Assembly: GCF_000012985.1 (NCBI RefSeq)
Contig: NC_007645.1
Coordinates: 2,758,501-2,822,500, forward strand
DNA length: 64,000 bases
Source: Hahella chejuensis KCTC 2396
Lineage (GTDB): Bacteria; Pseudomonadota; Gammaproteobacteria; Pseudomonadales; Oleiphilaceae
Direction: 5' to 3'
A program made the translations under genes and the position numbers. Under the pieces are notes generated by a model, which saw nothing but the letters and a program-made list of their open reading frames with translations, did not search any database and had not been told where the DNA came from. Numbering within the stretch: position 1 is the stretch's first letter; every line of letters begins with the position of its first letter. Positions 23,621 through 59,637 of this stretch are shown here, in pieces.

Positions 23621-24898
23621 CTACAGGCGCCCGTCCACCGCGTCTTTCGGCAGTACGTATTTGACGTCGAAGAGGACATGGTTGTCTTTGCCGAGTTTGC
23701 GGATATTTTCTATACCCATGTCTTTAAATTGCTTGTGCGCCACAGTGAGAATGATGGCGTCGTAATGATTTTCTTTTAATTCTGGAATGACGCGAATGCC
23801 ATATTCGTGTTCCGCCTCCGCGGGGCTGGCCCATGGGTCGTAGACATCCACGTTGGCGTTATATGACTTAAACGCGCTGATAACGTCGACTACGCGAGTG
23901 TTGCGGATGTCTGGGCAGTTCTCTTTGAAGGTCAATCCCAATACCAGGATATTGGCTTCCGCCACATGTTGTTTGCGTTGCGTCATCATGCGGATGACGC
24001 GCTCCGCTACATGCTGGCCCATGCCGTCGTTAATGCGACGGCCGGATAGTATGATTTCGGGGTGGTGGCCGACCGCCTGGGCTTTGTAGGTCAGGTAGTA
24101 AGGATCGACGCCAATGCAATGACCTCCTACCAAACCGGGACGGAAGGGGAGAAAGTTCCACTTGGTGCCGGCGGCTTCCAATACTTCTAAAGTGTCGATG
24201 CCAAGCTTTTCGAAAATCAATGACAGCTCATTGATCAGCGCAATATTGACGTCGCGCTGCGTGTTCTCGATGACCTTGGCCGCTTCCGCCACTTTGATGC
24301 TGCTTGCTTTGTGGGTGCCGGCGATAATAATGGATGCGTAGAGTTCGTCTATGTACTGTGCAACCTCGGGAGTAGAGCCGGAGGTAACCTTCAAGATGTT
24401 AATGACCCTGTGCTCTTTATCCCCGGGGTTGATGCGCTCGGGGCTGTAGCCGGCGAAAAAGTCCTGGTTGAACGTCAATCCAGAAACTTCTTCAAGTATG
24501 GGAACGCAGACTTCTTCTGTTGCGCCAGGATAAACGGTGGATTCGTAAATGACGACGTCATCTTTTTTCAGCACTTTGCCGATTGCGCGGCTGGCTGATT
24601 GTAATGGTCTTAGATCGGGTGTTTTGAAGTCGTCGATAGGGGTTGGGACGGTGACAATGTAAACATTACAGGATTGTATATCTTCAAGTTTGCTGCTGTA
24701 GGAAAGTTTGTTTGCTTCAGCAAGCAGTTCGGGTTCCACTTCCAATGTGCTGTCTTTACCGGATTTCAGCTCCTCAATACGGGCGGCGTTGATGTCAAAG
24801 CCTACGGTGGAGAACTTCTTGCCGAACTCGACGGCCAGTGGCAGGCCAACATAACCCAGGCCCACAACTGCAATTTTTGCGTTCCTCAAATCTGTCAT
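23621..24898 (-). CDS. Nucleotide-sugar 6-dehydrogenase (UDP-HexNAc type, TviB/WbpO-like)
   Basis: Oxidises a UDP-N-acetylhexosamine to its uronic acid with two NAD+. The 425-residue protein has the NAD motif [12 protein letters not shown] near residue 11, the middle-domain catalytic cysteine C261 in [15 protein letters not shown], and the C-terminal domain with [15 protein letters not shown]. The PYYLTYKA pattern and the length resemble TviB/WbpO (UDP-GalNAc or GlcNAc) more than UDP-glucose dehydrogenases. It stands at the edge of the exopolysaccharide region, divergent from the main operon, and should supply an acidic amino sugar. Exact substrate uncertain. Confidence 0.88.
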
Positions 24899-25005: not shown

Positions 25006-25306
25006 AAACTCAGGAAACAGCCCGCGCATTCGTTATCGGATCATGCGCTTAAGGCTAAATCATTCAAGACTTCGTTTGAGCTGATTCGCGCATATCGACC
25101 ATGGCGACAATATCAAGCGAACTCTTGAGAAATTTAGCCGAAGCGCGTCGCCGCGCAAGTATATCGGAAAATACGCGCCAAGATATTTGAATTTAGTTTA
25201 ACAATACTCTTTTGTATTTGCTTAACTTAAGTTGTCCGAAAAAATTTGATAGCATGAGCGGCCCTCAAGTCTAGGCTGCAAGTCCGTGTTGGTAAGGAGA
25301 AAAGGC

Positions 25307-26716
25307 TTGGCCCACGTACGTATATTCCGGCATTACATACATTTGCCCTACATTATTATGGGCGTCGCGGACCTGGTGGTCTTAGGCGCAGTATTTTACT
25401 GTGGCGTTTTCTTTCGTTATTTCGGCGAAATCAATTTTTTCCTCGATAACTATCAGGTCGCTATTCCCGAGGCGCTGACCTTTGCGTTGGTTAACCTTAT
25501 CATCATGATCGCAATGGGGGTCTATCCCGCCAAAACCCAAGAGGGTATGTCCGGCATGATGTTGAGAACGATATTTTCGATTCTCATGTCCGCCGCAGGT
25601 TTGTCCTTTTTATTTTACGTAACTGAATCCTGGTTATGGTATTTCGGCAAGGGCGTTTTGGCGCTTTCCTCGGTCCTGGCGATTTTTATCCTGGGCATCT
25701 CCCGCAGTCTGTTCCTGTTTTTCGCTAATGAACAAAGCTTCAAGCGCAATGTTTTAGTGCTCGGCGCAGGAAACCGCGCGAGCAATCTTTACGAGGACTT
25801 AAAGGAGCCCCTGGATCGCCGAGGCGTTGAGTTAATGGGGTTTGTGCCGGGGCTGGACGAAGAGCTCAAGGTGCCTGAGCCGAAAGTGTTGAGAATTCCT
25901 GGAACTCTGAAGGATTATATTTTGAATCATCCGGTCGATGAGATTGTTATCGCCCTGGATGACCGCAGAAAGAAGCTGCCGCTGGATGACTTGCTTGAAT
26001 GCAAGATGGAAGGCGTGCATATCGTGGACGCCCCTACGTTTCTGGAGCGCGAAGGCCGTAAGGTGGCGCTTGATCTGATTCAGCCAAGCTGGATGATCTT
26101 TGCTGATGGATTCGGGGCGGTTTCCACTCGCAGCATCACCAAGCGCGGCTTTGATATTTTATCCAGCCTGAGCCTGTTGCTCGTGACTTGGCCTATTATG
26201 TTACTGACGGTGCTCGCTATTAAGCTTGAGGAAGGCTGGTCTGCTCCAGTGTTGTATAAGCAAGAGCGGGTTGGGCTAAACGGTCGTCCGTTCCCAGTCA
26301 TGAAGTTTCGTAGCATGAGGGTTGATGCGGAGAAGCATGGCGCCGTCTGGGCGCAGAAAAACGACACTCGCGTGACCCGTGTTGGCGGTTTTATTCGTAA
26401 AGTGCGTATCGACGAGCTGCCGCAAATTTTTAATGTTTTGTTAGGAGATATGGCTGTGGTTGGGCCGCGTCCAGAGAGGCCCATTTTTGTGGAAAAGCTT
26501 TCGGAAAAGATTCCTTACTATAACGAAAGGCATAGAGTGAAGCCCGGTATCACCGGTTGGGCGCAACTCTGTTTCGCTTACGCCGATAGTGAGGAGGACA
26601 CCAAGGAGAAGCTGCGGTATGATTTATACTACATTAAGAATCAGAGTCTACTGCTTGATTTAATTGTATTAATTCAGACCGTTGAGGTTATTTTGTTTAA
26701 GAAAGGCTCCCGGTAA
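25307..26716 (+). CDS. Priming sugar transferase, XrtA/PEP-CTERM-associated (EpsB-like)
   Basis: Membrane phosphoglycosyl transferase that starts the repeat unit by moving a sugar phosphate to undecaprenyl phosphate. I choose TTG 25307, preceded by AAGGAGA at the right distance and giving the family-like beginning AHVRIFRHYI; GTG 25286 is the longer option. N-terminal helices and a CoA-binding-like middle domain (VLVLGAGNRASNL) precede the bacterial sugar transferase domain with KRGFDI, YKQERVGLNGRPFPVMKFRSM and DELPQIFNVLLGDMAVVGPRPERP. It resembles the sugar transferase class tied to exosortase A loci and heads a long operon. Confidence 0.88.
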   Translation: MAHVRIFRHYIHLPYIIMGVADLVVLGAVFYCGVFFRYFGEINFFLDNYQVAIPEALTFALVNLIIMIAMGVYPAKTQEGMSGMMLRTIFSILMSAAGLSFLFYVTESWLWYFGKGVLALSSVLAIFILGISRSLFLFFANEQSFKRNVLVLGAGNRASNLYEDLKEPLDRRGVELMGFVPGLDEELKVPEPKVLRIPGTLKDYILNHPVDEIVIALDDRRKKLPLDDLLECKMEGVHIVDAPTFLEREGRKVALDLIQPSWMIFADGFGAVSTRSITKRGFDILSSLSLLLVTWPIMLLTVLAIKLEEGWSAPVLYKQERVGLNGRPFPVMKFRSMRVDAEKHGAVWAQKNDTRVTRVGGFIRKVRIDELPQIFNVLLGDMAVVGPRPERPIFVEKLSEKIPYYNERHRVKPGITGWAQLCFAYADSEEDTKEKLRYDLYYIKNQSLLLDLIVLIQTVEVILFKKGSR

Positions 26717-26852
26717 GCGGGCGCTCGGGTTTTTAACATTGGCATCATTGTTTTGAAGTATTTAGCAGGGCGTAATGTTGGAAAACTATCCGGAAAACCC
26801 TGGCTGCTGAAGAGCCGCATTGGATTCAACTGCTGATTAACTTGGGATACTA

Positions 26853-27491
26853 ATGATGAATATTAACGCCTTGAAAATATGCGTTCTGGCATTACTGGCT
26901 GTGCTGTTCAGCGCCTGCAGCACGGTTAAGCCTTCCGATAATGCTCTGGTTAGCGCCGCTCTGAAAGATCGGCCTAAGATGCTGGAGTCGTATATTCTGG
27001 GGCCTGGCGATGTGGTTAACATTAATGTTTGGCGTAACCCTGAGCTATCAGGAAGCGTGCCAATTAGGCCGGATGGCAAATTGTCTACGACGCTGGTTGG
27101 CGATATCGTAGCGTCCGGAAAAACTCCGGCTCAGTTGGCTGAGGAAATCAAGCAAAAGCTGTCGGTATATATCCGTGAGCCTCAAGTCAGCGTTGTCGTC
27201 ACTGGAATGCAGAGCTATGAGTTTTCCAGTCGCGTACGTGTGACCGGCGCGGTGAAGTCGCCCATTTCCATTCCTTATCGTCATGGAATGACCGTCATGG
27301 ATGTTGTGCTGACGGCTGGCGGGCTGAATGATTTCGCAAATGGAGACAGCAGCGTGCTGTATAGACAGTACCAAGGGAAGAGCGTGATCATTCCTGTAAA
27401 ATTAAATGAAATCTTTCAGGAAGGCGACGTGACCACCAACTACGAGTTGAACCCTGGGGATATAATTACTGTTCCTGAGAAGGTGTTGTAA
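26853..27491 (+). CDS. Short OPX polysaccharide export lipoprotein (Wza-like, XrtA-associated)
   Basis: A periplasmic outer-membrane-polysaccharide-export protein of 212 residues. It has a lipoprotein signal with VLFSACS (lipidation cysteine near residue 24), a Poly_export domain starting YILGPGDVVNINVW, and one SLBB domain (VRVTGAVKSPISIPY). It is much shorter than Wza (about 380) and lacks the C-terminal amphipathic helix that forms Wza's outer-membrane pore, so it must rely on another protein to cross that membrane. The beta-barrel protein encoded at 29965 is the obvious candidate. The start is the first of two adjacent ATG codons. Confidence 0.9.
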   Translation: MMNINALKICVLALLAVLFSACSTVKPSDNALVSAALKDRPKMLESYILGPGDVVNINVWRNPELSGSVPIRPDGKLSTTLVGDIVASGKTPAQLAEEIKQKLSVYIREPQVSVVVTGMQSYEFSSRVRVTGAVKSPISIPYRHGMTVMDVVLTAGGLNDFANGDSSVLYRQYQGKSVIIPVKLNEIFQEGDVTTNYELNPGDIITVPEKVL

Positions 27492-27562
27492 TACGACGCG
27501 GTTGGGGGCGAAATTGAGTTTGAGACTGAACTTTTCTCTTATGACTATGCTGGTGCAATGAT

Positions 27563-29080
27563 ATGGCGGTTCCAATAGATCAGCTACCAAAAGAAGCCTT
27601 CAGGGAGATTCGTTCCCGGAAATGGCTGTCGTTCTTTGTTTTTCTTGCTGTCAGCTTCGGAACGCTTGTCGTGGGCGCATTTTGGCCGCAGCAGTTTACT
27701 TCGCGCGGAGTTATTTATGTGGACGATCAGAATATAATTCGACCACTGATGGAAGGCTCTGCTCTGACCACCAAAGTCAAAGATCACGTGGCTTCTGTAG
27801 AAGAAGTTATGCTATCGAGAAGAGTTCTAACGCGGCTCGCCGAAATGGAAGAAATTTGGGGGACGGTTAAAAGCGAAGCGGCGAAAGAAGGGATTATCAG
27901 CAAAATAAGGAATAATGTCGCTGTTAAGAAAACGGGCGCTCCCAACTTTATTGAGATTGAATATAAAGACTCAACTGCCCAAAGAGTGTTTGATGTAACT
28001 CGGGAGTTGAGTCAGCTATTTATAGATGAGACTGAAAGTAGCAAGCGGGAAGAAAGCCGCAACGCATACGAGTTCGTTGACAAGCAGGTTAAGGCTTATC
28101 AAACCCAACTGCAGGCCTCTGAAGAACGGCTGAAAAATTTCTTACAAGAAAACGTCGATGGTACGGCGGACACGGTTGGCTCCAGAATTTCCTCGCTTGA
28201 GCGTCAGCTTGAAGAGGCTGAGTTGGGAATTAAGGAGGCTATTGCGCAAAGGGACGCGTTACAGTCTCAACTGTCTGGTCAATCCAAAATCGTACGCAGG
28301 GAAGTTGCTGGAGACGCCTACGAGACGCGGATCGAGGAGCTGAATAAGAAGTTGGATTCTCTTAGGTTAATATACCTGGACAGCTATCCTGATATCATTG
28401 CGCTTAAGCAGCAAATCGCGGAGCTGGAAAGGCAGCGTACAGAGGCTCTGTCCAGTGGAAGCGCGTCTGGTTCGCGCTCTGAATCCTCTTTTAACCCAAT
28501 TTATCAAGAGTTGCAGAGTGAGCTGTCCAAAGCTCTGGCGAATATTGACACGCTGCGAACTAGACAGGCCTCCCTCACCGCATTGTTGGAGAGAGAGCGT
28601 ACCCGTATGCAGCGTATTCAGGAGAATGAAGCAAAAATCTCTGAGCTTACTCGGGATTATGAAGTCAACAAGAGCATATATGACGATTTGCTTAAAAGAC
28701 GTGAGAAAGCGCGTGTATCAATGAGGCTCGACGTTGAAGGGCATGGTCTTAGCTATAAGATCCATGAGGCCCCTGCGTATCCCTTGAAACCATCTGGCTT
28801 TACATTCCGGCACTTTGCAGTTGCTGGCCTGTTTTTAGGCATGTTGGCTCCTTTTGGTTTGGCTATTGCGTTTTGCCAAGTTGATCCGAGAGTGCGTACA
28901 GGATCTATTTTGCAGGAAAATACGGGTATCCCTGTGTTGGCGACCATCCCCTATATTTCCACTCCACTGGAACGGAGAATTGACCGACGCCGTACGAAAG
29001 TCATTTTATTCTTGGCTGTGTTGAGTATTGGCGTTTATTTATTGTACGGGTGGATGCGTTATACGGGAGTCGTCTTGTGA
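27563..29080 (+). CDS. Chain-length determinant protein (Wzz/PCP, XrtA-associated)
   Basis: Inner-membrane polysaccharide co-polymerase of 505 residues that sets chain length and links the synthesis and export machinery. N-terminal helix at about 22-42, a long periplasmic coiled-coil region (about 150-400, with heptad-like QASEERLKNFLQ and SLERQLEEAE), a GNVR-like ELTRDYEVNKSIYDDLLKRRE segment, and two C-terminal helices. It has no kinase domain; the ATPase-like partner follows as a separate gene whose GTG overlaps this stop. Confidence 0.88.
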   Translation: MAVPIDQLPKEAFREIRSRKWLSFFVFLAVSFGTLVVGAFWPQQFTSRGVIYVDDQNIIRPLMEGSALTTKVKDHVASVEEVMLSRRVLTRLAEMEEIWGTVKSEAAKEGIISKIRNNVAVKKTGAPNFIEIEYKDSTAQRVFDVTRELSQLFIDETESSKREESRNAYEFVDKQVKAYQTQLQASEERLKNFLQENVDGTADTVGSRISSLERQLEEAELGIKEAIAQRDALQSQLSGQSKIVRREVAGDAYETRIEELNKKLDSLRLIYLDSYPDIIALKQQIAELERQRTEALSSGSASGSRSESSFNPIYQELQSELSKALANIDTLRTRQASLTALLERERTRMQRIQENEAKISELTRDYEVNKSIYDDLLKRREKARVSMRLDVEGHGLSYKIHEAPAYPLKPSGFTFRHFAVAGLFLGMLAPFGLAIAFCQVDPRVRTGSILQENTGIPVLATIPYISTPLERRIDRRRTKVILFLAVLSIGVYLLYGWMRYTGVVL

Positions 29081-29907
29081 GTGATAAGCAAGAGAACACC
29101 AAAAATATCTATGATATCGACAAGGGCGTGGCTCGAACCCAGGATCAGTCTCAGAGTACATCTGCGGACAGAGTCTTAGTCCCGAGCTCTCTGGAAATCA
29201 AATCAGGTAGCGTAGAGCGCTATGTGATTAGCAAGCAAATCGCCAAAATGAGAGAGCCCTCTCTTTTGTCAGTGGATGACCTGAATCAAAAGAGGATAAT
29301 TCATCCAGAGTCCCCTGACCGCGCTATTATCGACAAGTTTAGAGAGCTTCGTACGCGTCTGTTGGAAATCAGTAAGGGAAATAACTTTACCTTGGCTGTT
29401 ACAGGCGTAACTGAAGGATGTGGGGCTTCTTTTGCGGCTGTAAACTTAGCTGCCGCATTTGCGCTGGATAGCAGTAAGACGGCTTTGATTATAGATTGCA
29501 ATTTGAGGGAGCCCTCGCTTCATAATATTCTCGATCTCATGCCTGACCTGGGCGTTACGGACTTTATCGAGGACCCCGATATGGATATAGCATCAGTTAT
29601 ATATCCAACGGGCATTAAAAGATTGCGCCTGATTCCAGCGGGTAGCAGGAGGGAATCTTCTGGGGAGTTTTTTACTTCTTTTCGTATGAGGCAGTTTCTG
29701 CACTCGCTAAGAAAGCGATATCCTGATCGCTTTATTATTCTGGACACACCTTCAATTGCAGTGTCGCCAGATGCGCGGATTATTTCCGAGCTGTGTGATT
29801 TGACATTGGTTGTCGTACCTCATGGAAGGGTTACAGAAAGTCAGATTGTATCCGCTGTGTCGTCGATTCCTTCGCAGAAATGCGCTGGAGTCCTAGTAAA
29901 TGGCTAA
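29077..29907 (+). CDS. BY-kinase-like ParA/CpsD family protein with degenerate P-loop
   Basis: Belongs to the CpsD/CapB/XrtA-associated tyrosine autokinase family by position and fold. The start is GTG 29077 (GGGAG at 29065-29069), within a GTGA overlap; an in-frame ATG nine codons upstream also exists. The Walker A region reads GVTEGCGAS (110-118): the catalytic lysine of the usual GEGKS/T is alanine 117. Walker A' is DCNLR (second acidic residue replaced by N142) and Walker B is FIILDTPS (D223). The C-terminus ends at GVLVNG with no tyrosine cluster. It is probably not an active autokinase but a structural regulator of the Wzz-like protein. Confidence 0.8.
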   Translation: MSDKQENTKNIYDIDKGVARTQDQSQSTSADRVLVPSSLEIKSGSVERYVISKQIAKMREPSLLSVDDLNQKRIIHPESPDRAIIDKFRELRTRLLEISKGNNFTLAVTGVTEGCGASFAAVNLAAAFALDSSKTALIIDCNLREPSLHNILDLMPDLGVTDFIEDPDMDIASVIYPTGIKRLRLIPAGSRRESSGEFFTSFRMRQFLHSLRKRYPDRFIILDTPSIAVSPDARIISELCDLTLVVVPHGRVTESQIVSAVSSIPSQKCAGVLVNG

Positions 29908-29964
29908 TTTTAGTTCAAAAAATCTGTCTTATTTCATGTAACCACCATAAGGATCTGTCCCTTC

Positions 29965-31251
29965 ATGGATTACCTTATTCCATTTAAAAAAAAGCCGACG
30001 CTCTTCGCTCTGGTTGGCGTAAATCTATTGTGTGCGCCATTGGCCTTACGTGCAGATCCGCTGGAGGTTCGCCTCAGCGCTACGCATGAGTATTCAGATA
30101 ATGTTACGAAGACGAAAGAAAAGAAAGATGACACCCTAACCAAAGTGGGCATCAACTTAGGCCAAACTCTTTCAAAAGGAGCGTATGCAAGCTCATTATC
30201 GGCGGACTTCGGTTTTGAGCACTATTGGGGAGACACCTTTGGCGATGAAGTCACCACAGAGGTTACTTATAGTGGAAAGTATAATTTCTCCCCCGCATTA
30301 TCATGGTCTCTCAAGGACGAGCTTACCGAAGATGTACTAAATAGCAGTACGCCAACTACTCCGGATTCAAGGGTGCGTAAGAATGTCCTTACTACCGGTC
30401 CAAGTTATCGAGTCGCGATGACCTCCGAGGACGATCTGGTTTTAGGGGCGAATTACAAACAGATTGACTTTGAAAGCAATACTGCCGTTGACAGTAAAAG
30501 GCAATCGGCTACGGCTGATTATATGCACCGCTTTGCCAGTGCTTTGACATTTACTTGGAGTAACAGTGGTGAATGGGCAAAGTTAGATAATGAGACGGAT
30601 CTTGAAACATTGGAGTCAGAGTTACGCTTTAGCAAGAAATATAATGACCTTACTACCAGTTTAGGGGTCGGTTTTACTAAGCTAAAAAGTGAGCGGGCTA
30701 ACGTTACCAATGAGTCAGAGGATGTTACAGGCTCATTTAATGCAAATTACCAGGCTTCAGCGGCTTTAGGGCTTTTCTATTCTTACAAGCGTACATTGAC
30801 TGACAGTGCTTCAGAAACGGTGTTTCAGCTTTTCGAACGACCTATTTCGTTTGGTTCCAGTGATAGCGTTCTCTTGCAAGAGCATGTTGCTGGAGCAAGT
30901 TACACTCCAAATGTCAGAGATACTTTTCAGTTAACAGGTGTTAGCAGCACTGAGGAAAACGAGGGTGCTAGTACTAAAGATAAAGAGCACTCTTTGTCTA
31001 TTAGTTGGTCACATAACGTCAACTCCACTTGGAGTTGGTTTGCTTCATCAGAGTATACGAATAAAGAGGTTGGCGTCCGTAATGCGGACGAAGACTCGTA
31101 CGATCATACGCTGAGGCTTAATCATAAATGGTTTAAGAACTTCAGCTCTCGTTACTACGCTGAGTATGAAGTTAAAGATTCTTCTGATGGAGCAAATGAG
31201 TACGATGCGCTGACCGTTGGAATCGGCGTGGACTACGTCCCCAATTTTTAA
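29965..31251 (+). CDS. Outer-membrane beta-barrel protein, PEP-CTERM system-associated
   Basis: A 428-residue protein with a signal peptide (hydrophobic VGVNLLCAPLALRADP, cleavage near residue 31). The body is made of alternating-polarity strands rich in aromatic ends, finishing GVDYVPNF with a C-terminal phenylalanine, as expected for an outer-membrane barrel. It resembles the uncharacterised barrel family found in exosortase A loci. Next to a short OPX protein it may form the outer-membrane exit for the polysaccharide. That role is inferred. Confidence 0.75.
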   Translation: MDYLIPFKKKPTLFALVGVNLLCAPLALRADPLEVRLSATHEYSDNVTKTKEKKDDTLTKVGINLGQTLSKGAYASSLSADFGFEHYWGDTFGDEVTTEVTYSGKYNFSPALSWSLKDELTEDVLNSSTPTTPDSRVRKNVLTTGPSYRVAMTSEDDLVLGANYKQIDFESNTAVDSKRQSATADYMHRFASALTFTWSNSGEWAKLDNETDLETLESELRFSKKYNDLTTSLGVGFTKLKSERANVTNESEDVTGSFNANYQASAALGLFYSYKRTLTDSASETVFQLFERPISFGSSDSVLLQEHVAGASYTPNVRDTFQLTGVSSTEENEGASTKDKEHSLSISWSHNVNSTWSWFASSEYTNKEVGVRNADEDSYDHTLRLNHKWFKNFSSRYYAEYEVKDSSDGANEYDALTVGIGVDYVPNF

Positions 31252-31268
31252 TCATATAGGTGGTTGTC

Positions 31269-32126
31269 TTGCAGAACGCCTTAACTATAGATGTAGAGGA
31301 TTATTTCCACGTTGCGGCGCTAGCGGAATCAATTAGCGTTGATGAGTGGTCGAATCGAGAGTGTCGCGTGGAAAAGAACACGCGAAATTTACTTGAGTTA
31401 TTTGACAAGAAAGGTGTGAAAGGCACTTTTTTTGTTTTGGGGTGGGTGGCGGAAAGATATCCTCATATTGTCACTGATATTCATCAGGCGGGCCACGAAG
31501 TGGCCTCACACGGCTACAGCCACCAATTGGTTTACTCGCAGACTCCAGAAGTATTCAGGGAAGAAACCGCCAAATCCAAAGATATTCTGGAAAATATCAT
31601 TCAGCAGCCAGTAGAGGGATATCGGGCGGCGAGTTATTCAATAACCGCCAAGTCCAAGTGGGCGCTGGATATTTTGTGTGACTTGGGGTTTAAGTGGGAT
31701 TCAAGTATTTTTCCGGTAAGGCACGATCGGTATGGGATGCCAAATACGCCGGAAGATCCCTACATACTGCAAGCGCCAAATGGCAAGCAGATTGTTGAGT
31801 TTCCCTTAACTACTTGCCCGATTGGTAAATATAGACTGCCTATTGCTGGCGGCGGCTACTTCAGGTTGTTTCCTTATTGGCTTACGCGTTGGGGACTAGG
31901 GCGGGTAAATAGTTTGGGACGAAGTTTTATCTTTTACTTGCATCCATGGGAAATTGATCCGAAACAGCCGCGAGTCAAGGCCAGTATGTTGTCTACGTTT
32001 AGGCACTACAATAACCTGGATGTGTGCTTTTCCAGGTTGGAGGCGTTGCTGGATGACTTTTCTTTTACTACGGTTTCAGAAGTACTTAAGGCCCAGTCTA
32101 TCGACTCAGTTCCAGTTGCGGTTTAA
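31269..32126 (+). CDS. Polysaccharide deacetylase, XrtA-associated
   Basis: NodB-fold deacetylase of about 285 residues with no signal peptide. TTG 31269 is favoured: AGGTGG lies five bases upstream and the protein then begins QNALTIDVEDYF, as in the family; GTG 31260 is the alternative. Motifs: TIDVEDYF (metal aspartate), HEVASHGYSHQ (metal histidines), SSIFPVRHDRYG, and the C-terminal DUF3473 part with YLHPWEIDP. It probably removes N-acetyl groups from the polysaccharide or its lipid-linked precursor. Confidence 0.9.
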   Translation: MQNALTIDVEDYFHVAALAESISVDEWSNRECRVEKNTRNLLELFDKKGVKGTFFVLGWVAERYPHIVTDIHQAGHEVASHGYSHQLVYSQTPEVFREETAKSKDILENIIQQPVEGYRAASYSITAKSKWALDILCDLGFKWDSSIFPVRHDRYGMPNTPEDPYILQAPNGKQIVEFPLTTCPIGKYRLPIAGGGYFRLFPYWLTRWGLGRVNSLGRSFIFYLHPWEIDPKQPRVKASMLSTFRHYNNLDVCFSRLEALLDDFSFTTVSEVLKAQSIDSVPVAV

Positions 32127-32134
32127 CGCCTGTT

Positions 32135-33508
32135 ATGAATGATACATATAACTTAGACAGCCTGAAGTCGAGAGAAGATCAACTTAAGGCGCGCAAAGGC
32201 GAGCTGTCGCGTTTAATTGGCGAAGCTAAGAAAAATGGCTCCGATGCGAATGAACTCATTGTTGAAATGGGGGCAATATCAGCCGAATTTAAAGAAGTAG
32301 CGGCTCATATCAAGACGCTTAAAAAAGCGCAACGCCAGCAGGGTGACTGGTCGAATGATGAAATGCTTACGGATGGCCAGCAAGATAAGGCTAAGCAGGC
32401 AGAGAAGCTACAACAGGTTATTGAAGAGGTTTCCTCTGCGCCACAGATCCTAAGTCTTGCAACAAAAGCATTTCGCGTCGTGGAAATAGACGCTGAACCG
32501 GGCTTGCGTGCATCTTGGGATGATTACGTTGACCAGCATCCGCAGTCTTCCCCGTATCACAAGATATGGGTGAAATCGTTCGTTGAGTCAGTGTACGGTC
32601 ACCCATGCCGCTTTATTTGTGCGCTTGACGAGACAGACAGGATCGTCGGTGTTCTGCCGCTTACTCAATTGAACAGTCGTCTATTTGGAAATTTTATTGT
32701 CTCTGCACCGTATTTTAACTATGGCGGTATTCTCGCGGACAGCAGGCAAGTCGCTCAAATACTGCTCGCTGATGCTGTGCGCTGGCGTGACCAAGTTGGA
32801 GCAGGGCATATTGAATTACGGCATTTGACGCCATCCAGCCTGAGGTTGCCGCAACGAACAGAAAAGCTGACATTCTGGCTTGCGTTACCACAGCAGGAAG
32901 ATGATTTGTGGTTGAGCTTTAAACCAAAGGTTCGAGCACAGATTAAGCGGCCGCAAAAGGAAGGCGCTGAAGTTACCATTGGTGGCGCCGAGTTACTAGA
33001 CGACTTTTATGCGGTGTTCTCAAGGAATATGAGAGATCTTGGTACGCCGGTTTATGGCAGAAACTTTTTTTATGGTTTCCTTAGTTCATACGGAGAATCT
33101 GCTAGAGTTGTCATAGGCAGGTTAAACAAGACTGTAGTCGCATGCGCAATTGTTATTGGACATGGGCGACGCATGGAAATTCCCTGGGCTTCTACGCTTC
33201 AGGAGGCTAATAGCTCTGGAATTAATATGCTGATGTACTGGGAAATACTTAAGTTCAGTATTCATCAGAAGTATCAAATATTTGATTTTGGGCGCTGCAC
33301 TGAAGGCAGTGGCACCTATAAGTTTAAACAGCAGTGGGGGGCGACTCCCGTCAGGTTGCATTGGGACTATTGCCTGGCGGAAGGTAGGGACGCGCCCAAA
33401 TTGAACCCGGATAATCCAAAGTTCAAGTTGGTTATAGCAGTTTGGAAGAGGCTTCCTGTTTGGCTCACTAATATGGTGGGCCCTTTGCTGGTCAAGTACT
33501 TGCCATAG
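32135..33508 (+). CDS. FemAB-family aminoacyl transferase with N-terminal SerRS-like coiled-coil arm
   Basis: A GNAT/FemAB protein of 457 residues. The C-terminal ~350 residues resemble the FemAB proteins of exosortase A loci (FICALDETDRIVGVLPL, YFNYGGIL, KVRAQIKRPQKEGAEV, DFGRCTEGSGTYKFKQQWGA). The N-terminal ~70 residues are an added helical hairpin, SREDQLKARKGELSRLIG then AKKNGSDANELIVEMGAI, closely resembling the tRNA-binding arm of seryl-tRNA synthetase. FemX/FemA enzymes use aminoacyl-tRNA to add amino acids to cell-wall precursors, so this arm suggests tRNA, perhaps Ser-tRNA, as donor. It lies nine bases after the deacetylase gene and about 50 bases before the NRPS start. Confidence 0.8.
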   Translation: MNDTYNLDSLKSREDQLKARKGELSRLIGEAKKNGSDANELIVEMGAISAEFKEVAAHIKTLKKAQRQQGDWSNDEMLTDGQQDKAKQAEKLQQVIEEVSSAPQILSLATKAFRVVEIDAEPGLRASWDDYVDQHPQSSPYHKIWVKSFVESVYGHPCRFICALDETDRIVGVLPLTQLNSRLFGNFIVSAPYFNYGGILADSRQVAQILLADAVRWRDQVGAGHIELRHLTPSSLRLPQRTEKLTFWLALPQQEDDLWLSFKPKVRAQIKRPQKEGAEVTIGGAELLDDFYAVFSRNMRDLGTPVYGRNFFYGFLSSYGESARVVIGRLNKTVVACAIVIGHGRRMEIPWASTLQEANSSGINMLMYWEILKFSIHQKYQIFDFGRCTEGSGTYKFKQQWGATPVRLHWDYCLAEGRDAPKLNPDNPKFKLVIAVWKRLPVWLTNMVGPLLVKYLP

Positions 33509-33557
33509 GCGGTTGAGAAACTTTTACCGCGTCGAACCTAAACTGCAGAGTAAAGTA

Positions 33558-36500
33558 ATGAGTAGCACTCTTGGGAATAGAGGGCGGAGGCGAGAGTTGT
33601 TCGCTATCGCCAAGCAAGAAGAGTGGGGGTTGCCGGAGGCTCTAATTGCTGCAGCCCAGCGCTTTCCTGACTGTCATGCAGTCAAATCGGAAGATGGTCA
33701 ATTCACTTATCTAGAGTTATTAAGTCAGTCTATATCCGTGGCTGAGCGGCTCAATATCTTGGGCGTAAAGCCTGGCGATAGGGTGGCTGTATGCGTTAAC
33801 AGAGACCATCATCTTCCTGCTTTGCTCCTGGGTGTTGGAATGTCGGGCGCCGCTTATGTCCCTGTGGACCCAGCTTTTCCTGCCGAGAGAATTGCAATTA
33901 TCCTTGAAGATGCGGATGTGTCAGCCGCGATTTATGAGCCTTCTACGCTTTCTTTGGTTGAAAGTACGCAAAACCTTCTTTTGCTTGATAGGTTTGAGTT
34001 GGATGCAGTGGGCGTTACGTTGCGTTCTTTCGATGCGCTCAGAGATGAGTATGTGCGCCTTTCCGAACGCAGGACCAATACGGCGGAGTTACTGGCTTAT
34101 ATCATTTTTACTTCAGGATCTACTGGAAGGCCTAAAGGCGTCCCAATTACGCATCGTGCGGCGATAAACTTTTTATATGGCGTTGATGAAAAGATAGGAA
34201 CGCAAGAGGGTGACCGGTTTCTTGGTCTAACCACTATTTCTTTTGACATCTCCGTGCTAGAGCTGTTTCTACCAATAGTTTTGGGGGGGTGCGTATATGT
34301 TTGTAAAAAAGGGGATGCGCTTTCTCCAGATCGACTGGCTGCAATTATCGAAGATAATGGCATCAACGTCTTACAGGCCACGCCAGCTACTTGGCGGTTG
34401 ATGCTGGAGCTAGGCTGGAAGCCGAATCAATATCAGAAAATCTTATGTGGAGGCGAAGCCTTTCCATCGGACTTGGCTGCCAAGCTGCTCTGTAGTGCTG
34501 GTGAAGTATGGAATATGTATGGGCCAACTGAAGCCACTGTTTGGGTAACTAGTCATAAGGTTGGCGCAGAAGATATTGAGGCTGGCTTCATTCCTTTAGG
34601 CGAGCCATACGCTAATATTGAACTCCGTGTGGTCAATGAGGCTTTGCAGTCGGTTGGCGCTGGCGGTTCTGGAGAGCTTTTAATCGGCGGAGAGTGCCTG
34701 TCGCCCGGTTACTTTAGGCGTCCTGAATTAAATTCTGATCGATTTATATCGCTGGTTGAAAATGGTCAAACCAAAACGTTCTATCGTACGGGAGACCTTG
34801 TCGAGCAGAGGCAAGATGGGAGTTTGCGTTATCTGGACCGTCTCGATAACCAAGTAAAGATACGCGGCTTTCGGATTGAGCTGGGAGAAGTTGAAGCAGT
34901 ATTGCGGCAGGTTCCAGGCATCGCAGACGCAGCTGTTGTCGCTGTTTCTAATGCGGCGGGTGATAACGTTCTGGTAGGTTGTGTTCGGTTTGTCGGTGAG
35001 AAACTGGCCTTTCCTGCAATTGAGAATGATCTACGGAAAGTTCTGCCGTTTTATATGGCGCCAGGATTGTGGCGGGCCTATGAATGTTTTCCGCAGACAC
35101 CAAATAAAAAGATAGATAAAAAGGCGCTAAAAAAAGATGTTGAAGCCAGTCTTGAGTCGACTGACGACACTGAGTCAGGCTTCGCTACAGATACGGAGCT
35201 GAGGCTTGCGAAAGTGTGGGGGGGGGTATTAGGTAGTGCGCCTAAAACCCCCTATGATCATTTTAATGAATTGGGAGGGCATTCCCTGGCCTCTGCTCGC
35301 CTCTCGGTAGAGATCCAAAAAGAGTTTGGCAAATTCGTAAGCATTAATCTTTTGATTGCCCATCCGCTCTTTATGGAGCAGTGTGACCTGATAACCTCTT
35401 TTTCCGAAGAAAGGAGTCTATCGGACGCACCTGCAAAAAATGATAGAAGCTTGACCGATGGGCAGAAGCGAATTTGGTTTATATGCCAGCTGGCGGGCTC
35501 CAGTAGTGTCTTCAACGAGTCTGAAGCTTTTATGCTGGAGGGGGGTTGTGAGCTTGACCTGTTAAAAGTGGCTATAGACGCTTTAATGAAAGCCACTCCA
35601 GCGATACGGCTACATTTAAACGCTGAAGATTTAAGCTGGGAGTTGCGAGAAGAGCCTGAAACGCCGCTGGAGGTTAGAGATCTGTATCTGGATTCCGGCT
35701 CCCTTGATAGCTATCTCCATCAGGAAGCGAAAAGAGAGTTTGATTTTGGCGAGGAGTTGTTAGTCCGCTTCGTAGCCTATGAAGCGGATGGAAAGTTGAT
35801 CGCCCTGCAAATGATTACTCATCATATTTTGCTGGATGGTATCTCTCAATTGTTGGTATGGAACCGTTTATTCGATTTGTACGAGCAATTGATGGAAGGT
35901 GCGGATTTGAGAGCGCAGACTTCGCTAGGTTGGGACAGTGTCAATTTAGTGAGAGAAAGCGATGGCTTGCGAGAATGTGCGGATTTCTGGGGTCAAAATC
36001 TAAAAGGGCCGTTGCCTGCCTTAAATCTTCCAACGGACTATCCGCGCCCAGACTACTTTGATTTTAAAGGGCGACAATACTCAGCTTTTCTTGGCGAAGA
36101 TATCACTGGACGTTTGCTCAGCGTTGCTCACTTAGTCCGTACCAGACCATTTGTCATATTGGTTTGCGCTTATGCGGCATGGTTGAGAAGAGTATCAGAT
36201 AGCGAAGACCTAGTATTGGGCACTGCTACAAGCGGTAGAGACTCCAAAGAGGGCCTTCAAGACTCTATAGGTATGTTCTTTAATACGATACCGCTTAGGT
36301 TGAATAGAGAGGAAAAGAACCTTTTTGAGCAAATTAAGTATGTAGAGCAAACTTTAAACCAAGCGCTTCTGCATGGAGGGTTGTCATTCGATAAAATAGT
36401 GTCCGCGGCGCACGCTGACCGGGATCCATCCAGGCCGACCTTAGCGCAGGCCTATATTACCTTTAATGATTTTTCTAGGCGAAAAAAAACAGTAAAAAGC

Positions 36501-37844
36501 ATTGGAAAGCTACGGCCGATTCATGTCGATGCCGGCTACACACAAGGAGAGATATTTCTATTTGTGGACTTCGATGGAAGTGACCTTACGTTCAGGTTCC
36601 AAACCAGCTCAGCGCTTTTCACTGAGCAAACCTCAAGAGCCATGATGTCTGACTTCACTCGTACTCTTACTAACCTGATAGAGAGTCTGGAAGTGGGTAA
36701 GTCTAAACTGGAGTTAGAAGGACAGGCTGGGTATTGGATTAATAAGGCTTCTCCGAAAGAAGGTTATGACCCAGATAAGATGGCGACTGACCTTATGGTG
36801 AACGAAGCTCTATTGGAAAAGGTCATTGGTGTATGGAAAGATGTTTTAGGACTAAGCAGTCTTGATGTGGACGCTAACTTTTTTGAAGTTGGCGGCCACT
36901 CTATAAAAGCCTTGCAGATTTTTGACCAGTTACACCGACAGTGTGGAATAAACGCACCGCTAGCACTGCTATTTAAAGCGCCAACGCCAAGATCTTTAGC
37001 AAAAGAATTGGGATGTATTTTGGCGGCCAATGATAATGTTCAAGAGACTGATGAAGACACATCTTCACAAGAAGGGGGCGACTCTCACTGGCGTAATATT
37101 GTTTCGCTGTCGCCAGGGGGAGCGAAAACGCCACTTATATGCGTTCACCCTATTGGTGGAAATGTGCTGGCCTACAAAGCTTTGATTGATTTTGAGGGGT
37201 TGAACCGGCCTGTATATGGAATCCAGTCCACGGGATTGGATGGCGTGAGTAAACCCTTCGAATCCATTCTGGAGATGGCTGCGCATTATGCGGTCCAGGT
37301 CGAGCGAACGCTTGCTAAAAAGCACGTTTGTCTCTTAGGAGGCTCTATGGGGGGAACTATCGCCATAGAGTTGGCCAATGAACTTTTGGCTAAAGGTTTT
37401 AAAGTTGATTGGGTAATCTTACTTGATACGATAGGTCCCTTTGCAAAAAGTGAACGTGAAAGTGCGGAGATAGATAGACGAGGCATTTGGGAAAAAGTGG
37501 TGCAAAGCTTTTCTGCTCGCTCCAAGTATTATCTTCAGGTGGCTAGAGTGAGTTTTTATCGCTCCTTTGGTCTTCGTTTACCCCAAACATTGAGAGTTTT
37601 CGAAGTCCGTAGGGCTAATAGAATTGCAATGGAGAGGCATCGTGAGCGGACCTATGGCGGCAGCGTTATATTGTTGCGTTTGCCAATAGAAAAAGCGGGG
37701 GCCTACAGTTTTCCATGGTTGGGTTGGGAGAAGCATCTGACGGGTAGAGTTGAAGTGGAGACGGTCGATGCGGAGCACGCGCAGTTTCTAGAGTCTGATG
37801 AAGCAAAACGGGTGCTTGCCGGTTTTCTTCGTGAACAAGAGTAG
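33558..37844 (+). CDS. Non-ribosomal peptide synthetase, A-T-C-T-TE, predicted glycine-activating
   Basis: A 1428-residue NRPS counted from ATG 33558; TTG 33513 is an alternative. Adenylation domain (about 20-525): SGSTGRPKG at 186-194, YGPTEAT, YRTGDLV. Aligned by eye to the PheA pocket, the specificity residues are D230 I231 L234 Q273 L296 G298 M320 V328 W329 K518, the glycine-type code as I remember it. Carrier domain 1 has LGGHSL with S576. Condensation domain (about 590-1030) has an intact HHILLDG at 755-761 and IGMFFNT. Carrier domain 2 has VGGHSI with S1115. The thioesterase has GGSMGG with S1263. Only one A domain serves two carriers, and no C domain precedes it. Lies in the exopolysaccharide operon. 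Confidence 0.88.
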   Translation: MSSTLGNRGRRRELFAIAKQEEWGLPEALIAAAQRFPDCHAVKSEDGQFTYLELLSQSISVAERLNILGVKPGDRVAVCVNRDHHLPALLLGVGMSGAAYVPVDPAFPAERIAIILEDADVSAAIYEPSTLSLVESTQNLLLLDRFELDAVGVTLRSFDALRDEYVRLSERRTNTAELLAYIIFTSGSTGRPKGVPITHRAAINFLYGVDEKIGTQEGDRFLGLTTISFDISVLELFLPIVLGGCVYVCKKGDALSPDRLAAIIEDNGINVLQATPATWRLMLELGWKPNQYQKILCGGEAFPSDLAAKLLCSAGEVWNMYGPTEATVWVTSHKVGAEDIEAGFIPLGEPYANIELRVVNEALQSVGAGGSGELLIGGECLSPGYFRRPELNSDRFISLVENGQTKTFYRTGDLVEQRQDGSLRYLDRLDNQVKIRGFRIELGEVEAVLRQVPGIADAAVVAVSNAAGDNVLVGCVRFVGEKLAFPAIENDLRKVLPFYMAPGLWRAYECFPQTPNKKIDKKALKKDVEASLESTDDTESGFATDTELRLAKVWGGVLGSAPKTPYDHFNELGGHSLASARLSVEIQKEFGKFVSINLLIAHPLFMEQCDLITSFSEERSLSDAPAKNDRSLTDGQKRIWFICQLAGSSSVFNESEAFMLEGGCELDLLKVAIDALMKATPAIRLHLNAEDLSWELREEPETPLEVRDLYLDSGSLDSYLHQEAKREFDFGEELLVRFVAYEADGKLIALQMITHHILLDGISQLLVWNRLFDLYEQLMEGADLRAQTSLGWDSVNLVRESDGLRECADFWGQNLKGPLPALNLPTDYPRPDYFDFKGRQYSAFLGEDITGRLLSVAHLVRTRPFVILVCAYAAWLRRVSDSEDLVLGTATSGRDSKEGLQDSIGMFFNTIPLRLNREEKNLFEQIKYVEQTLNQALLHGGLSFDKIVSAAHADRDPSRPTLAQAYITFNDFSRRKKTVKSIGKLRPIHVDAGYTQGEIFLFVDFDGSDLTFRFQTSSALFTEQTSRAMMSDFTRTLTNLIESLEVGKSKLELEGQAGYWINKASPKEGYDPDKMATDLMVNEALLEKVIGVWKDVLGLSSLDVDANFFEVGGHSIKALQIFDQLHRQCGINAPLALLFKAPTPRSLAKELGCILAANDNVQETDEDTSSQEGGDSHWRNIVSLSPGGAKTPLICVHPIGGNVLAYKALIDFEGLNRPVYGIQSTGLDGVSKPFESILEMAAHYAVQVERTLAKKHVCLLGGSMGGTIAIELANELLAKGFKVDWVILLDTIGPFAKSERESAEIDRRGIWEKVVQSFSARSKYYLQVARVSFYRSFGLRLPQTLRVFEVRRANRIAMERHRERTYGGSVILLRLPIEKAGAYSFPWLGWEKHLTGRVEVETVDAEHAQFLESDEAKRVLAGFLREQE

Positions 37845-37874
37845 AGTGTCGAGAGGGGTGGTTATAACTAGTTT

Positions 37875-38972
37875 ATGAAGAAGGTATTGCATTTAATCGA
37901 CACCACTGGTCCTGGCGGTGCAGAGACTGTTTTTATCCAATTATTAAGGAACTTGTCCAAAGACAAATATCAACACCACGTTATTCTGCGTGGAGAGGGA
38001 TGGGTTGCGGATCAAGTTCGTGAGTCTGGCCTGGAACCTGTATTCATTGACTCTAAGGGGAGCTTTAATCTTGGCTATGCTTGGGCGCTGGTGCAATTTG
38101 TCCGATCAAAGAAGATAGATGTGATTCATGCTCACTTAATGGGCTCCAATGTATATGGCGCTCTTGTCGCCATGCTAACGCGCAAGCCGATGATAGCCAC
38201 ATTTCATGGTGGTGTGGACGTAGCAAGACAGGAAAGATTGCTACGCATCAAGTTTAAGCTAATAAGTCTTGGAGCGGACTCAATCGTTTGTGTATCTAGA
38301 AAGCTGGAAGAGGAGTTAAAGCAAAGAGGGGAGCTTGAGAGTTGTAAGTTAAAGCTTATCTACAATGGCGTTGACCCTGGGCTCTTTTCGAGGCGAAGTG
38401 GGACATTAAAGAGTGAGCTTGGTTTATCTGACGACGCCATTGTTGTGCTTTCTGTGGGTAATATACGCCCTGCAAAAGGCTATGAATATCTGGTGGACGC
38501 AGCGGCCAAAATGAAGACTGCCCAAGAGTACCACTTTGTTGTTGTAGGGGATCAGAAAAAGAGCCTCTATGCGGAATTATTGAAACGAGTTGAAACTCAT
38601 GGTGGATTGCCTAATCTACACTTTCTTGGCTTTCGTTCAGATGTAAAGGAAATATTGGGGCAAGCGGATGTCTTTCTTTTAACCTCCATTAGTGAGGGGT
38701 TTTCTATCGCAACGGTCGAAGCCATGATGGCGGGTGTGACGGTGGTGGCGACGCGTAGTGGAGGGCCGGAAGAGATCGTCGAAGACGAGATTACGGGCCA
38801 GTTGATTCCCGTTGGGGATCCAGAAGCTGTTAAAACGGCCTTATTCAAACTTAGGGATAGAGCGTATGCTGAGAGGTTGCGCCAGGCGGCGCTAGACTCA
38901 GCAAGAGAGAGGTTTTCACTGGTAAACATGGTGCAAGCCTACGAAGGCCTATACGACAATCTCACTGTATAG
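37875..38972 (+). CDS. Glycosyltransferase family 4
   Basis: GT-B glycosyltransferase of 365 residues. It opens VLHLIDTTGPGGAETVFIQLL, typical of GT4, and has the C-terminal donor-binding part with LSVGNIRPAKGYEYLVDAA, FLLTSISEGFSIATVEAMMAG and RSGGPEEIVED. It is cytoplasmic and adds one sugar to the lipid-linked repeat unit. It follows the NRPS gene by 30 bases and appears to be the last gene of the first plus-strand operon; convergent with the ATP-grasp gene. Confidence 0.88.
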   Translation: MKKVLHLIDTTGPGGAETVFIQLLRNLSKDKYQHHVILRGEGWVADQVRESGLEPVFIDSKGSFNLGYAWALVQFVRSKKIDVIHAHLMGSNVYGALVAMLTRKPMIATFHGGVDVARQERLLRIKFKLISLGADSIVCVSRKLEEELKQRGELESCKLKLIYNGVDPGLFSRRSGTLKSELGLSDDAIVVLSVGNIRPAKGYEYLVDAAAKMKTAQEYHFVVVGDQKKSLYAELLKRVETHGGLPNLHFLGFRSDVKEILGQADVFLLTSISEGFSIATVEAMMAGVTVVATRSGGPEEIVEDEITGQLIPVGDPEAVKTALFKLRDRAYAERLRQAALDSARERFSLVNMVQAYEGLYDNLTV

Positions 38973-39049: not shown

Positions 39050-40234
39050 CTAGCTGCGTAAATCGCGCAGGTATTTTTTTAGTTCGAATATAAATGGCTT
39101 GAAGTCGGATAGTCTGTTGACTTCATGCTTGGTTTTGCCATTTGGAAGAAAGAAGCGAAGTAATTCAACCAACTTTCGCCCTGCTGAATATTGATGAGCC
39201 GGGGACTTCAATACTAGGTACAAGCGATCTAGGTCGCCCAGTAACCAGCGCATTTTTTGTCCGACCACGAATGAGTTGACAGGAGTTGTTTCGCCGTTAA
39301 CAAAGGATGTTAGAAGTAGATAAGGAAAATCTACGCCTGAGTCGATAGCGAGTTGGAGTGAGCCCCAGAATCGAGGGTTGATTTCCATCAGGTACGGTGT
39401 GCCGTCATCTGCTACCTTGAATTCCACCATAGCTACTCCGTTCCAATTTGCGTGGTGGAGTAGAGTGTCAGAAATTTGCTTCATGCGAGTGTCGACCTCT
39501 TTTGATTCGCACAGCACGCTGACGCCTCCCGATGGCGGTTTTTCTCTGAGTCTGCGGTGGGAAAAGTGGCAAACAGGACTCCCTTGGGAATAAAGGGCGA
39601 ATAAACCCTGTCCCTCTCCTTTGATATATGACTGAATCATGAAGGGATAGTCACGGAAATAGCGCCTTTTAAGAGCCTCCTCAGCCTCTGCCCGGGAGTG
39701 AGCGATGATCACGGTAGTGCTGATGATTTCTCGGTCTGTAAGAATGCGCGATTTAAAAGGCTTTAATACGATAGGGTATTCAGTAATGTCGGATAACGCC
39801 TTCTGCGCCTGCTCTATACTTTCAATATACTGAGTATGTGGAGTTGGCAGTCCCAGAGACTGGGCGAGTTGAAACAGGCGATTTTTGTTAGCCAAATGCT
39901 CTATCGACTCTGCTTTGGAAAATGGCAGAATTAAGCCTTTTGGCAGCTTATCCCTGTTCTCCAGGATGACATAGGTTGAGGCTTCCGTAACGGGCAGAAG
40001 GAAGTTGATCTGCTTCTCGGATACTATTTTCAATATATCGTCAAAGAAGTTGGATGGCTTGGTGTAAGGGGATGCGTATACCCCCTTGTCAAGAGAGAAA
40101 CGGGAAGCTCCCGCCAGCGTTTCGAGGCTTTCGTCTGCGGTCATGACCCAAATGCCTTGAGCGCCCAAAGAGCGAGTAGCGGCGAGAGCTGAGCGTTGAT
40201 TGGCGTCTAGTACTAGGGCGCGAATGTTGGTCAT
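39050..40234 (-). CDS. ATP-grasp ligase (carbamoyl-phosphate-synthase-like fold)
   Basis: A 394-residue ATP-grasp enzyme: N-terminal pre-ATP-grasp domain (ALVLDANQRSALAATRSLG), ATP-grasp core with PIVLKPFKSR, PFMIQSYIKGEGQG and the metal-binding MEINPRFWGSL. ATP-grasp enzymes of this type join a carboxylate, as acyl phosphate, to an amine. In a locus with an amino-uronic acid and an NRPS, it could amidate a uronic acid or join an amino acid. Substrates are not deducible from sequence. Single gene on the minus strand, divergent from the phosphatase gene. Confidence 0.78.
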   Translation of the reverse strand: MTNIRALVLDANQRSALAATRSLGAQGIWVMTADESLETLAGASRFSLDKGVYASPYTKPSNFFDDILKIVSEKQINFLLPVTEASTYVILENRDKLPKGLILPFSKAESIEHLANKNRLFQLAQSLGLPTPHTQYIESIEQAQKALSDITEYPIVLKPFKSRILTDREIISTTVIIAHSRAEAEEALKRRYFRDYPFMIQSYIKGEGQGLFALYSQGSPVCHFSHRRLREKPPSGGVSVLCESKEVDTRMKQISDTLLHHANWNGVAMVEFKVADDGTPYLMEINPRFWGSLQLAIDSGVDFPYLLLTSFVNGETTPVNSFVVGQKMRWLLGDLDRLYLVLKSPAHQYSAGRKLVELLRFFLPNGKTKHEVNRLSDFKPFIFELKKYLRDLRS

Positions 40235-50762: not shown

Positions 50763-50767
50763 TTTTG

Positions 50768-59491: not shown

Positions 59492-59637
59492 TGCTCGCAC
59501 AACTAAAATTCAGTGATTGCGCACTATAAAGAAGAATAAAAACTGAGATCAACAGGTTTTGTGTTCATGTGGCCATCTTGTCAGATTTTTTTACATTCCA
59601 ATAGGGTTTCTGAGATCGGTGTTGTTTTACGTGTTTG

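Follow-up and report, generated by a model that had tools for sequence, protein, structure and literature searches.

The window analysed here, a stretch of 64,000 nucleotides from contig NC_007645.1 of Hahella chejuensis KCTC 2396 (positions 2,758,501 to 2,822,500), contains an exopolysaccharide locus of the exosortase XrtA/PEP-CTERM kind, in which the gene directly behind that of a FemAB-family protein encodes a nonribosomal peptide synthetase (NRPS) with adenylation, carrier, condensation, carrier and thioesterase domains in that order (A-T-C-T-TE). We regard this as a working NRPS of an XrtA locus because the A-T-C-T-TE series is intact, the substrate pocket is of a glycine type, the slot behind FemAB is occupied in two genera, the enzyme has kin in Marinobacter, and its TE belongs to a subfamily that, in the genomes searched, scores above 200 bits only in loci of this kind. 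What the enzyme does is predicted from sequences: with a probability that we put at about one half, it equips the polysaccharide or its linking sugar with a glycyl or glycyl-peptidyl unit.

The NRPS gene and its substrate pocket

The open reading frame (ORF) runs from 33513 to 37844 on the plus strand and would give 1443 amino acids (aa) if read from a TTG; the ATG at 33558 (1428-aa product), already taken as the start in an earlier note made from the bare sequence, is kept in the 86% identical orthologue of another genome of the genus (G004; G and L numbers are our handles for genomes and loci) and is therefore the better start. Pfam finds AMP-binding (E 8.6e-75), AMP-binding_C, two PP-binding stretches, Condensation (1.3e-57) and Thioesterase (8.8e-16), the first T domain having been located by script. 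The core motifs are intact (TSGSTGRPKG; GGHS in both T1 and T2; HHILLDG in C; GGSMGG in TE), and the TE residues Ser1263, Asp1290 and His1407 (1428-aa numbering) are invariant across 11 aligned TE domains. The domain order and intact active sites described in the earlier note were thus borne out, and the gene has the A, T and C domains with intact core motifs of a modular NRPS. It does not have an A domain for each carrier, an oddity on which the earlier note is silent: about 30 residues lie between C and T2, where the Marinobacter counterparts hold an A domain, and shared or in trans loading of T2 therefore has to be assumed. A candidate for charging this orphan carrier in trans is a PaaK-like AMP ligase encoded at 50765-52141 (below all cut-offs), of which low-identity relatives occur in several XrtA loci. 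There are three matches to the carrier-activating ACPS family in the genome, a single contig of 7,215,267 bases with 28 Condensation-domain matches, i.e. with many other NRPS. In comparison with the G004 orthologue, dN/dS is 0.082 overall, 0.025 in T2 and 0.045 in TE, so the gene is under purifying selection, and the idea of a pseudogene was rejected on this ground (against the 64% identical orthologue of G001, dS is saturated across the whole gene).

The ten pocket positions of the A domain read DILQLGMVWK, the tenth of them, a lysine that is general, having been taken by eye, as the pocket alignment is off by one there for most rows. Over the nine positions spanned by the comparison with PDB structures (the K lies outside the compared stretch), AB3403 (4zxh/4zxi; DILQLGVVW) agrees with the window at eight and DhbF (5u89; DILQLGLIW) at seven, in keeping with the near-glycine code given in the earlier note. 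These two were chosen as yardsticks because LgrA module 2, which was dropped for this purpose, has pocket residues of another kind; their pockets are like that of the window's NRPS, but their architectures and contexts differ. Both are tabulated with Gly among the structures in PMC11253843 (where the table prints AB3404), and the same paper describes a tryptophan that occludes the DhbF pocket and bonds to a glutamine. The window's A domain has Q and W at the positions aligning with these two residues, matches the pattern DILQLGxxW of the DhbF/AB3403 glycine type, and is predicted to activate glycine.

XrtA loci also have a stand-alone AMP ligase, ligase_PEP_1 (TIGR03098). The notion that the window's A domain is this ligase fused to other domains was rejected, as it scores 203.6 bits against a cut-off of 592.35 and stands on a separate branch of the tree. 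Lone AMP ligases near FemAB in other lineages reach 355-497 bits with TIGR03098 (cut-off 592), PRK06187 scoring higher for seven of the eight. In Calditrichota and a gammaproteobacterium (L138, L149, L151, L170, L183) such a ligase adjoins FemAB, those of L138, L149, L170 and L183 having 362-401 bits with TIGR03098 and a higher score with PRK06187.

Relatives in the genus, in Marinobacter and in the order

Full-length orthologues (64-86% identity) are present in four of the seven genomes of the genus, the window's included, and all four retain A-T-C-T-TE; those of G001, G004 and G005 stand, as in the window, directly behind a TIGR03019 FemAB scoring at least 430 bits. The other three genomes have no close orthologue of the NRPS; two of them encode a weaker FemAB (265 and 258 bits against a cut-off of 260), and the third gave no FemAB match at E 0.001. 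Absence of the gene from this position in all relatives, which the earlier note had named as telling against its proposal, is thus not what we see, and the idea that the NRPS is unique to this genome is refuted by these orthologues and those of Marinobacter. A scan of genome contigs with the NRPS itself as query found no relative.

In five of 124 Marinobacter genomes (G320, G355, G450, G453, G480), full-length relatives, that of G320 being 1939 aa long, follow FemAB directly, at a gap of 14-76 bp; five named strains with this type 1 of gene (M. maroccanus N4, M. sp. CHS3-4, M. nitratireducens AK21, M. guineae M3B and M. sp. EhC06) have A-T-C-A-T-TE frames of 1939-1951 aa. They resemble the window's enzyme in the slot after FemAB, in a glycine-type first A domain (A1; in three of the five it has the window's nine pocket residues), and in A1 and C domains that form exclusive clades uniting the window's genus with Marinobacter (100/99 and 100/98, respectively), but differ in possessing an extra A domain (A2), which falls in a separate clade and has in all five the pocket DALWLGGTF, which we take to be Val-like. 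The trees leave loss and gain of A2 unpolarised, the simpler guess being that it was lost in the window's genus rather than gained in Marinobacter. (The trees left out L116 and L122, whose genomes are represented by L043 and L045, L151 and L078, which we treated as duplicates of L149 and L150, and the partial copies L029-L032; A fragments no longer than 430 residues, C fragments no longer than 290 and TE fragments no longer than 100 were likewise dropped. For L049, L077 and L246, the T domains were identified by eye.) In M. guineae M3B (L122), the genes after the NRPS are close to those of the window ('LMWP' 48%, 'Olig' 64%; other Marinobacter loci about 27-41%), which suggests cassette exchange. 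No published description of the dimodular Marinobacter enzyme was found in the open-licence literature.

A FemAB at E 1e-85 or better is encoded in 36 of the 124 Marinobacter genomes, and in 31 of them an XrtA match is on the same contig (28 of these matches being above the family cut-off). Between the two lies an NRPS in 22 of the 31 intervals (22 of the 28 with XrtA above cut-off), of type 1 in five and of another type, type 2, in 17, at 22-33 kb from FemAB; no interval has both. NRPS matches were found in 22 of the 36 FemAB-positive genomes against four of the 88 others, two of these four (G498, G501) being fragmented (Fisher p 2.3e-11, uncorrected for kinship; G494, which is FemAB-positive and has a piece of a type-2 gene on another contig, was left out of the count). 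Thirteen of the 17 type-2 genes are related to a C-A-T-C-A-T protein of 2150 aa whose partner, in the loci read, combines A, KS, AT and aminotransferase domains with carriers, the pair being a hybrid of NRPS and polyketide synthase (PKS); the other four (G372, G471, G518, G523) are a shorter variant. Each of the four type-2 loci read (G513, G466, G425, G372) has one A domain with the pocket DILQLGMVW, so that modules of the glycine type turn up at one locus in two distinct assembly lines. In these loci (L044, L192-L202), the NRPS/PKS pair, with its class-III aminotransferase, is situated between glycosyltransferase genes and XrtA, and genes for a GNAT and for a formyltransferase-like protein adjoin XrtA in G513.

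Across the order Pseudomonadales, TIGR03019 is matched at E 1e-40 or better in 70 of 390 genomes. The FemAB surroundings of the 69 other than the window's, reaching about 10 kb to either side unless the contig ended sooner, were compared by BLAST with the window's domains, and a multidomain NRPS was found in eight (G320, G355, G184, G132, G080, G226, G064, G286), counts of this kind being lower bounds; the locus of G286 (L080) is not clearly of the XrtA polysaccharide type. Wider stretches, taken for a few genomes only, add NRPS in G372, G063 and G177. In G063 (L050, L244, L245), three NRPS-type genes stand at the far end of the polysaccharide locus, FemAB and XrtA being about 20-35 kb away. 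Gene labels in the compared loci, XrtA included, are best BLAST matches to window proteins rather than family tests, and the scan of named loci with FemAB took the best 80 of 553 and is hence a sample. The earlier note had described exosortase A loci as often holding a standalone ligase and hydrolases and not a full NRPS: the locus is indeed of the exosortase A kind, but several NRPS architectures recur in such loci of Pseudomonadales.

A profile built from 11 TE domains and run over the 390 genomes gave nine matches above 200 bits, in eight genomes and all in loci of this polysaccharide kind. As six of the eight are seeds of the profile and a seventh, G246, nearly copies the seed G226, G063 provides the sole truly independent test; its TE domains, in C-A-T-C-A-T-TE and A-T-TE genes, are at least 34 kb from FemAB, with polysaccharide genes between. 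The A-T-TE protein of G246, nearly identical to that of G226, is encoded beside kinase, chain-length, export and priming genes; FemAB was not found there at E 1e-40, and XrtA is absent from the stretch read. The next match (131 bits) is an A-T-TE protein near an XrtA-like gene in G177, and the one after it (127 bits) comes from an NRPS that the window's genome encodes outside this locus. Among 369 genomes of the class, including the window's, only the window's own TE passes E 1e-40. An A-T-TE protein, having no C domain, can only load and release a single residue, and its simple hydrolysis would be futile, so the natural function of the TE in these sister loci would be aminoacyl transfer to an acceptor.

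The FemAB neighbour and the surrounding locus

The N-terminal arm of FemAB (32135-32434) matches Seryl_tRNA_N (PF02403, E 6.6e-7). From 39 long FemABs (the window's included) and 37 short ones that were fetched, 29 and 21 were scanned, and this arm was detected at E 0.01 in 27 of the 29 long proteins and in none of the 21 short ones; when a profile of the long FemABs was compared with PDB sequences, eight of the nine matches were seryl-tRNA synthetases (SerRS). In an AlphaFold2 model (pLDDT 90.4), helices 2-34 and 39-100 precede a body with the double-GNAT fold of FemX, and Foldseek ranks 1-11 are FemX, the aminoacyl-tRNA-dependent peptide synthases Sbb17/Sba18, and FemA. No SerRS is among the 50 Foldseek matches listed for the model, and the support for a SerRS-type arm comes only from the sequence profiles and the model's helices. 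The arm suggests that FemAB uses an aminoacyl-tRNA, perhaps Ser-tRNA. Long FemABs are present in loci with and without an NRPS, and the functions of the two are therefore separable.

The locus (Table 1) has XrtA, a PEP-CTERM protein and members of TIGR03006, TIGR03007, TIGR03013, TIGR03018, TIGR03019 and TIGR03027, all above the NCBIfam cut-offs, and so is of the XrtA/PEP-CTERM kind. The NRPS gene is the penultimate one in a same-strand run (25286-38972) with gaps of about 140 bases or less. Strand and spacing agree with the earlier placing of the NRPS in one operon with the priming transferase, Wzz, FemAB and a glycosyltransferase, a single transcript being likely; a promoter and terminator scan did no better than on shuffled sequence. 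A putative sulfotransferase (45009-45857; without an NCBIfam match, the name being a guess) and an adenylyl-sulfate kinase (55150-55773) suggest that the polymer is sulfated. The exosortase genes of H. chejuensis KCTC 2396 were listed in PMC1569441.

Table 1. Features of the NRPS gene and of the XrtA/PEP-CTERM exopolysaccharide locus, in positions of the window
Feature	Position	Strand	Basis
UDP-GlcNAc C-6 dehydrogenase, TviB type	23621..24898	-	629 bits, cut-off 592
Priming glycosyltransferase EpsB_2	25286..26716	+	TIGR03013
Exopolysaccharide export protein	26853..27491	+	TIGR03027
Chain-length determinant, Wzz-like	27563..29080	+	TIGR03007
XrtA-associated tyrosine autokinase	29050..29907	+	TIGR03018
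Protein recurring in many such loci, no family match	29965..31251	+	NCBIfam/Pfam scan, locus comparison
XrtA-system polysaccharide deacetylase, directly upstream of FemAB	31260..32126	+	TIGR03006
FemAB-family protein with N-terminal seryl-tRNA-synthetase-type helical arm	32135..33508	+	TIGR03019, PF02403, structure model
NRPS gene, A-T-C-T-TE, 1428 aa	33558..37844	+	Pfam domains, motif check; ORF from TTG 33513
Adenylation domain, pocket DILQLGMVWK, glycine type	33651..35132	+	Pfam, pocket alignment
First carrier (T) domain, GGHS	35166..35387	+	Script, motif
Condensation domain, HHILLDG	35448..36716	+	Pfam, motif; clade with Marinobacter XrtA-locus C domains 100/98
Second carrier (T) domain, GGHS, no preceding adenylation domain	36801..37016	+	Pfam, motif
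Thioesterase domain	37110..37832	+	Pfam, TE-subfamily profile
GT4 glycosyltransferase	37875..38972	+	Best NCBIfam match TIGR03088, below cut-off
ATP-grasp protein, divergent; recurs in many long-FemAB loci, with or without NRPS	39050..40234	-	Pfam, locus comparison
Exosortase XrtA	57983..59500	-	TIGR03109, 242.8 bits, cut-off 208
PEP-CTERM protein beside XrtA	59730..60464	+	TIGR02595, 28.7 bits, cut-off 16

What the enzyme may contribute

If the NRPS does supply a glycyl or glycyl-peptidyl unit to the polysaccharide, its A domain would load glycine onto T1, and the C domain would join this glycine to an amino acid on T2, which either that A domain or some other enzyme would have loaded. Because no N-acylating domain stands in front, glycine would be the N-terminal residue, and the TE would pass the glycyl-aminoacyl unit, with the glycine amine free, to a sugar of the polysaccharide or of a lipid-linked precursor. 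The deacetylase and the aminoacyl-tRNA-transferase-like FemAB would share in the same task, the aminoacylation of an amino sugar.

Several observations weigh against this. No multidomain NRPS was present in the fetched stretch of 61 of the 69 other order genomes with TIGR03019, nor was there an NRPS match (A and C profiles) in the remaining nine of the 31 Marinobacter intervals (that of G017 being checked partly by BLAST on L042, and the last 1.3 kb of that of G434 lying outside coverage); such a polysaccharide therefore does not need an NRPS, and the gene may simply be carried along by a variable locus. LgrA has a different pocket in its glycine module, and two of the five Marinobacter A1 pockets deviate (DILQIGCVY, DILQIGGVY). 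No resolution was obtained in the TE tree, and the C tree groups the window's genus with the Marinobacter domains other than that of M. guineae (97/81), so vertical descent alone does not account for the NRPS. Finally, a polymer of H. chejuensis, which this locus may or may not make, has a Glc:Gal ratio of 0.68:1 (PMC2901825), and a search of that review finds neither 'amino acid' nor 'glycine'.

It is possible, if rather doubtful, that the NRPS product is instead a free small molecule, a linear or cyclic dipeptide serving e.g. as a matrix signal or metal binder, that is merely co-regulated with the polysaccharide. NRPS genes usually serve secreted small molecules, and this genome is rich in other NRPS; moreover, at the same locus in Marinobacter the type-2 genes encode an NRPS-PKS hybrid that ends in an aminotransferase domain, and about 8 kb away in G513 there is a gene for an ABC transporter. 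The polysaccharide genes that flank the type-1 gene, the existence of A-T-TE forms, and the confinement of the TE subfamily above 200 bits to loci of this kind in the genomes searched all point away from such a product. Patchy presence, the mutual exclusion of the two NRPS types in 31 intervals of which nine have neither, and the unusual similarity of the M. guineae downstream genes ('Olig') to those of the window, with the cassette exchange that it suggests, would fit a chance insertion, functionally unrelated, into a recombination-prone polysaccharide locus; we think this unlikely in view of the same slot in two genera, so close to FemAB in Marinobacter, the NRPS in 22 of 31 intervals, and the TE subfamily. 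That the gene is a decaying remnant of a dimodular enzyme, left by loss of the second A domain still seen in all five Marinobacter orthologues and now replaced by a short C-T2 spacer, is very improbable given its low dN/dS (lower still in T2 and TE), its intact motifs, the common architecture of all four genus orthologues, and trees that do not settle whether A2 was lost or gained.

Known systems offer partial parallels to glycine supply for a polysaccharide. In Vibrio cholerae, AlmE/AlmF/AlmG add glycine to lipid A, so that here too glycine activated by an A domain is used on an envelope glycan (the likeness is one of description only); these are separate small proteins with neither a C nor a TE domain, and their acceptor is other than that which the window's NRPS would have. 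AlmE is described as Gly-activating and lipopolysaccharide-modifying in PMC11253843. In Porphyromonas and Tannerella, the putative deacetylase VimE and the TIGR03019-related VimA have been proposed to add Ser or Gly to an amino sugar, to which, once modified in this way, sorted proteins are amide-bonded (PMC7468200). Its authors also speculate that in PEP-CTERM systems a comparable sugar, modified with an amino acid, is made by proteins related to VimA; the main text contains neither 'tRNA' nor 'aminoacyl'. The window likewise pairs a deacetylase and a TIGR03019-type protein side by side, and adds a TviB-type dehydrogenase, XrtA and the NRPS, VimA being likened by description; in contrast, sorting in the VimE/VimA case is by a type IX secretion system rather than an exosortase, and no NRPS appears in the parts of PMC7468200 used here. 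PacB, an aminoacyl-tRNA-dependent FemX-like transferase, works in an NRPS natural product pathway (PMC12945691), and thus combines a FemX-like enzyme with an NRPS as the window does, but the product is a nucleoside antibiotic, not a polysaccharide.

A bolder reading, which we offer as a long shot, is that FemAB and the glycine NRPS build the exosortase acceptor, an amino sugar or a polysaccharide sugar with a seryl, glycyl or glycyl-peptidyl amine that would attack the XrtA-PEP-CTERM thioester; the NRPS would then, in particular lineages, lengthen or replace an amine made from aminoacyl-tRNA by the SerRS-armed FemAB. An analogue is found in staphylococci, where the pentaglycine made by FemXAB serves as the sortase A acceptor. 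The founding paper (PMC1569441) gave the exosortase partner of PEP-CTERM proteins as an unknown nucleophile of the periplasm, and in 2020 the acceptor was still an unidentified compound, perhaps an amino-acid-modified sugar (PMC7468200). The idea of an amino-acid-modified acceptor is thus already published; what is new here is the NRPS in the locus, its recurrence, the TE subfamily and the SerRS-type arm, no description of which was found in the open-licence literature.

Whichever of these functions applies, the locus sets two amino-acid-handling enzymes side by side, in relatives of bacteria that can be cultured in the laboratory, and our guess at their residues is serine for FemAB, from its arm, and glycine for the NRPS. 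No paper on a role for NRPS in polysaccharide decoration was found in the open-licence literature, and action of this NRPS on the glycan, should it be true, would make it a case of a full NRPS being used for that purpose.

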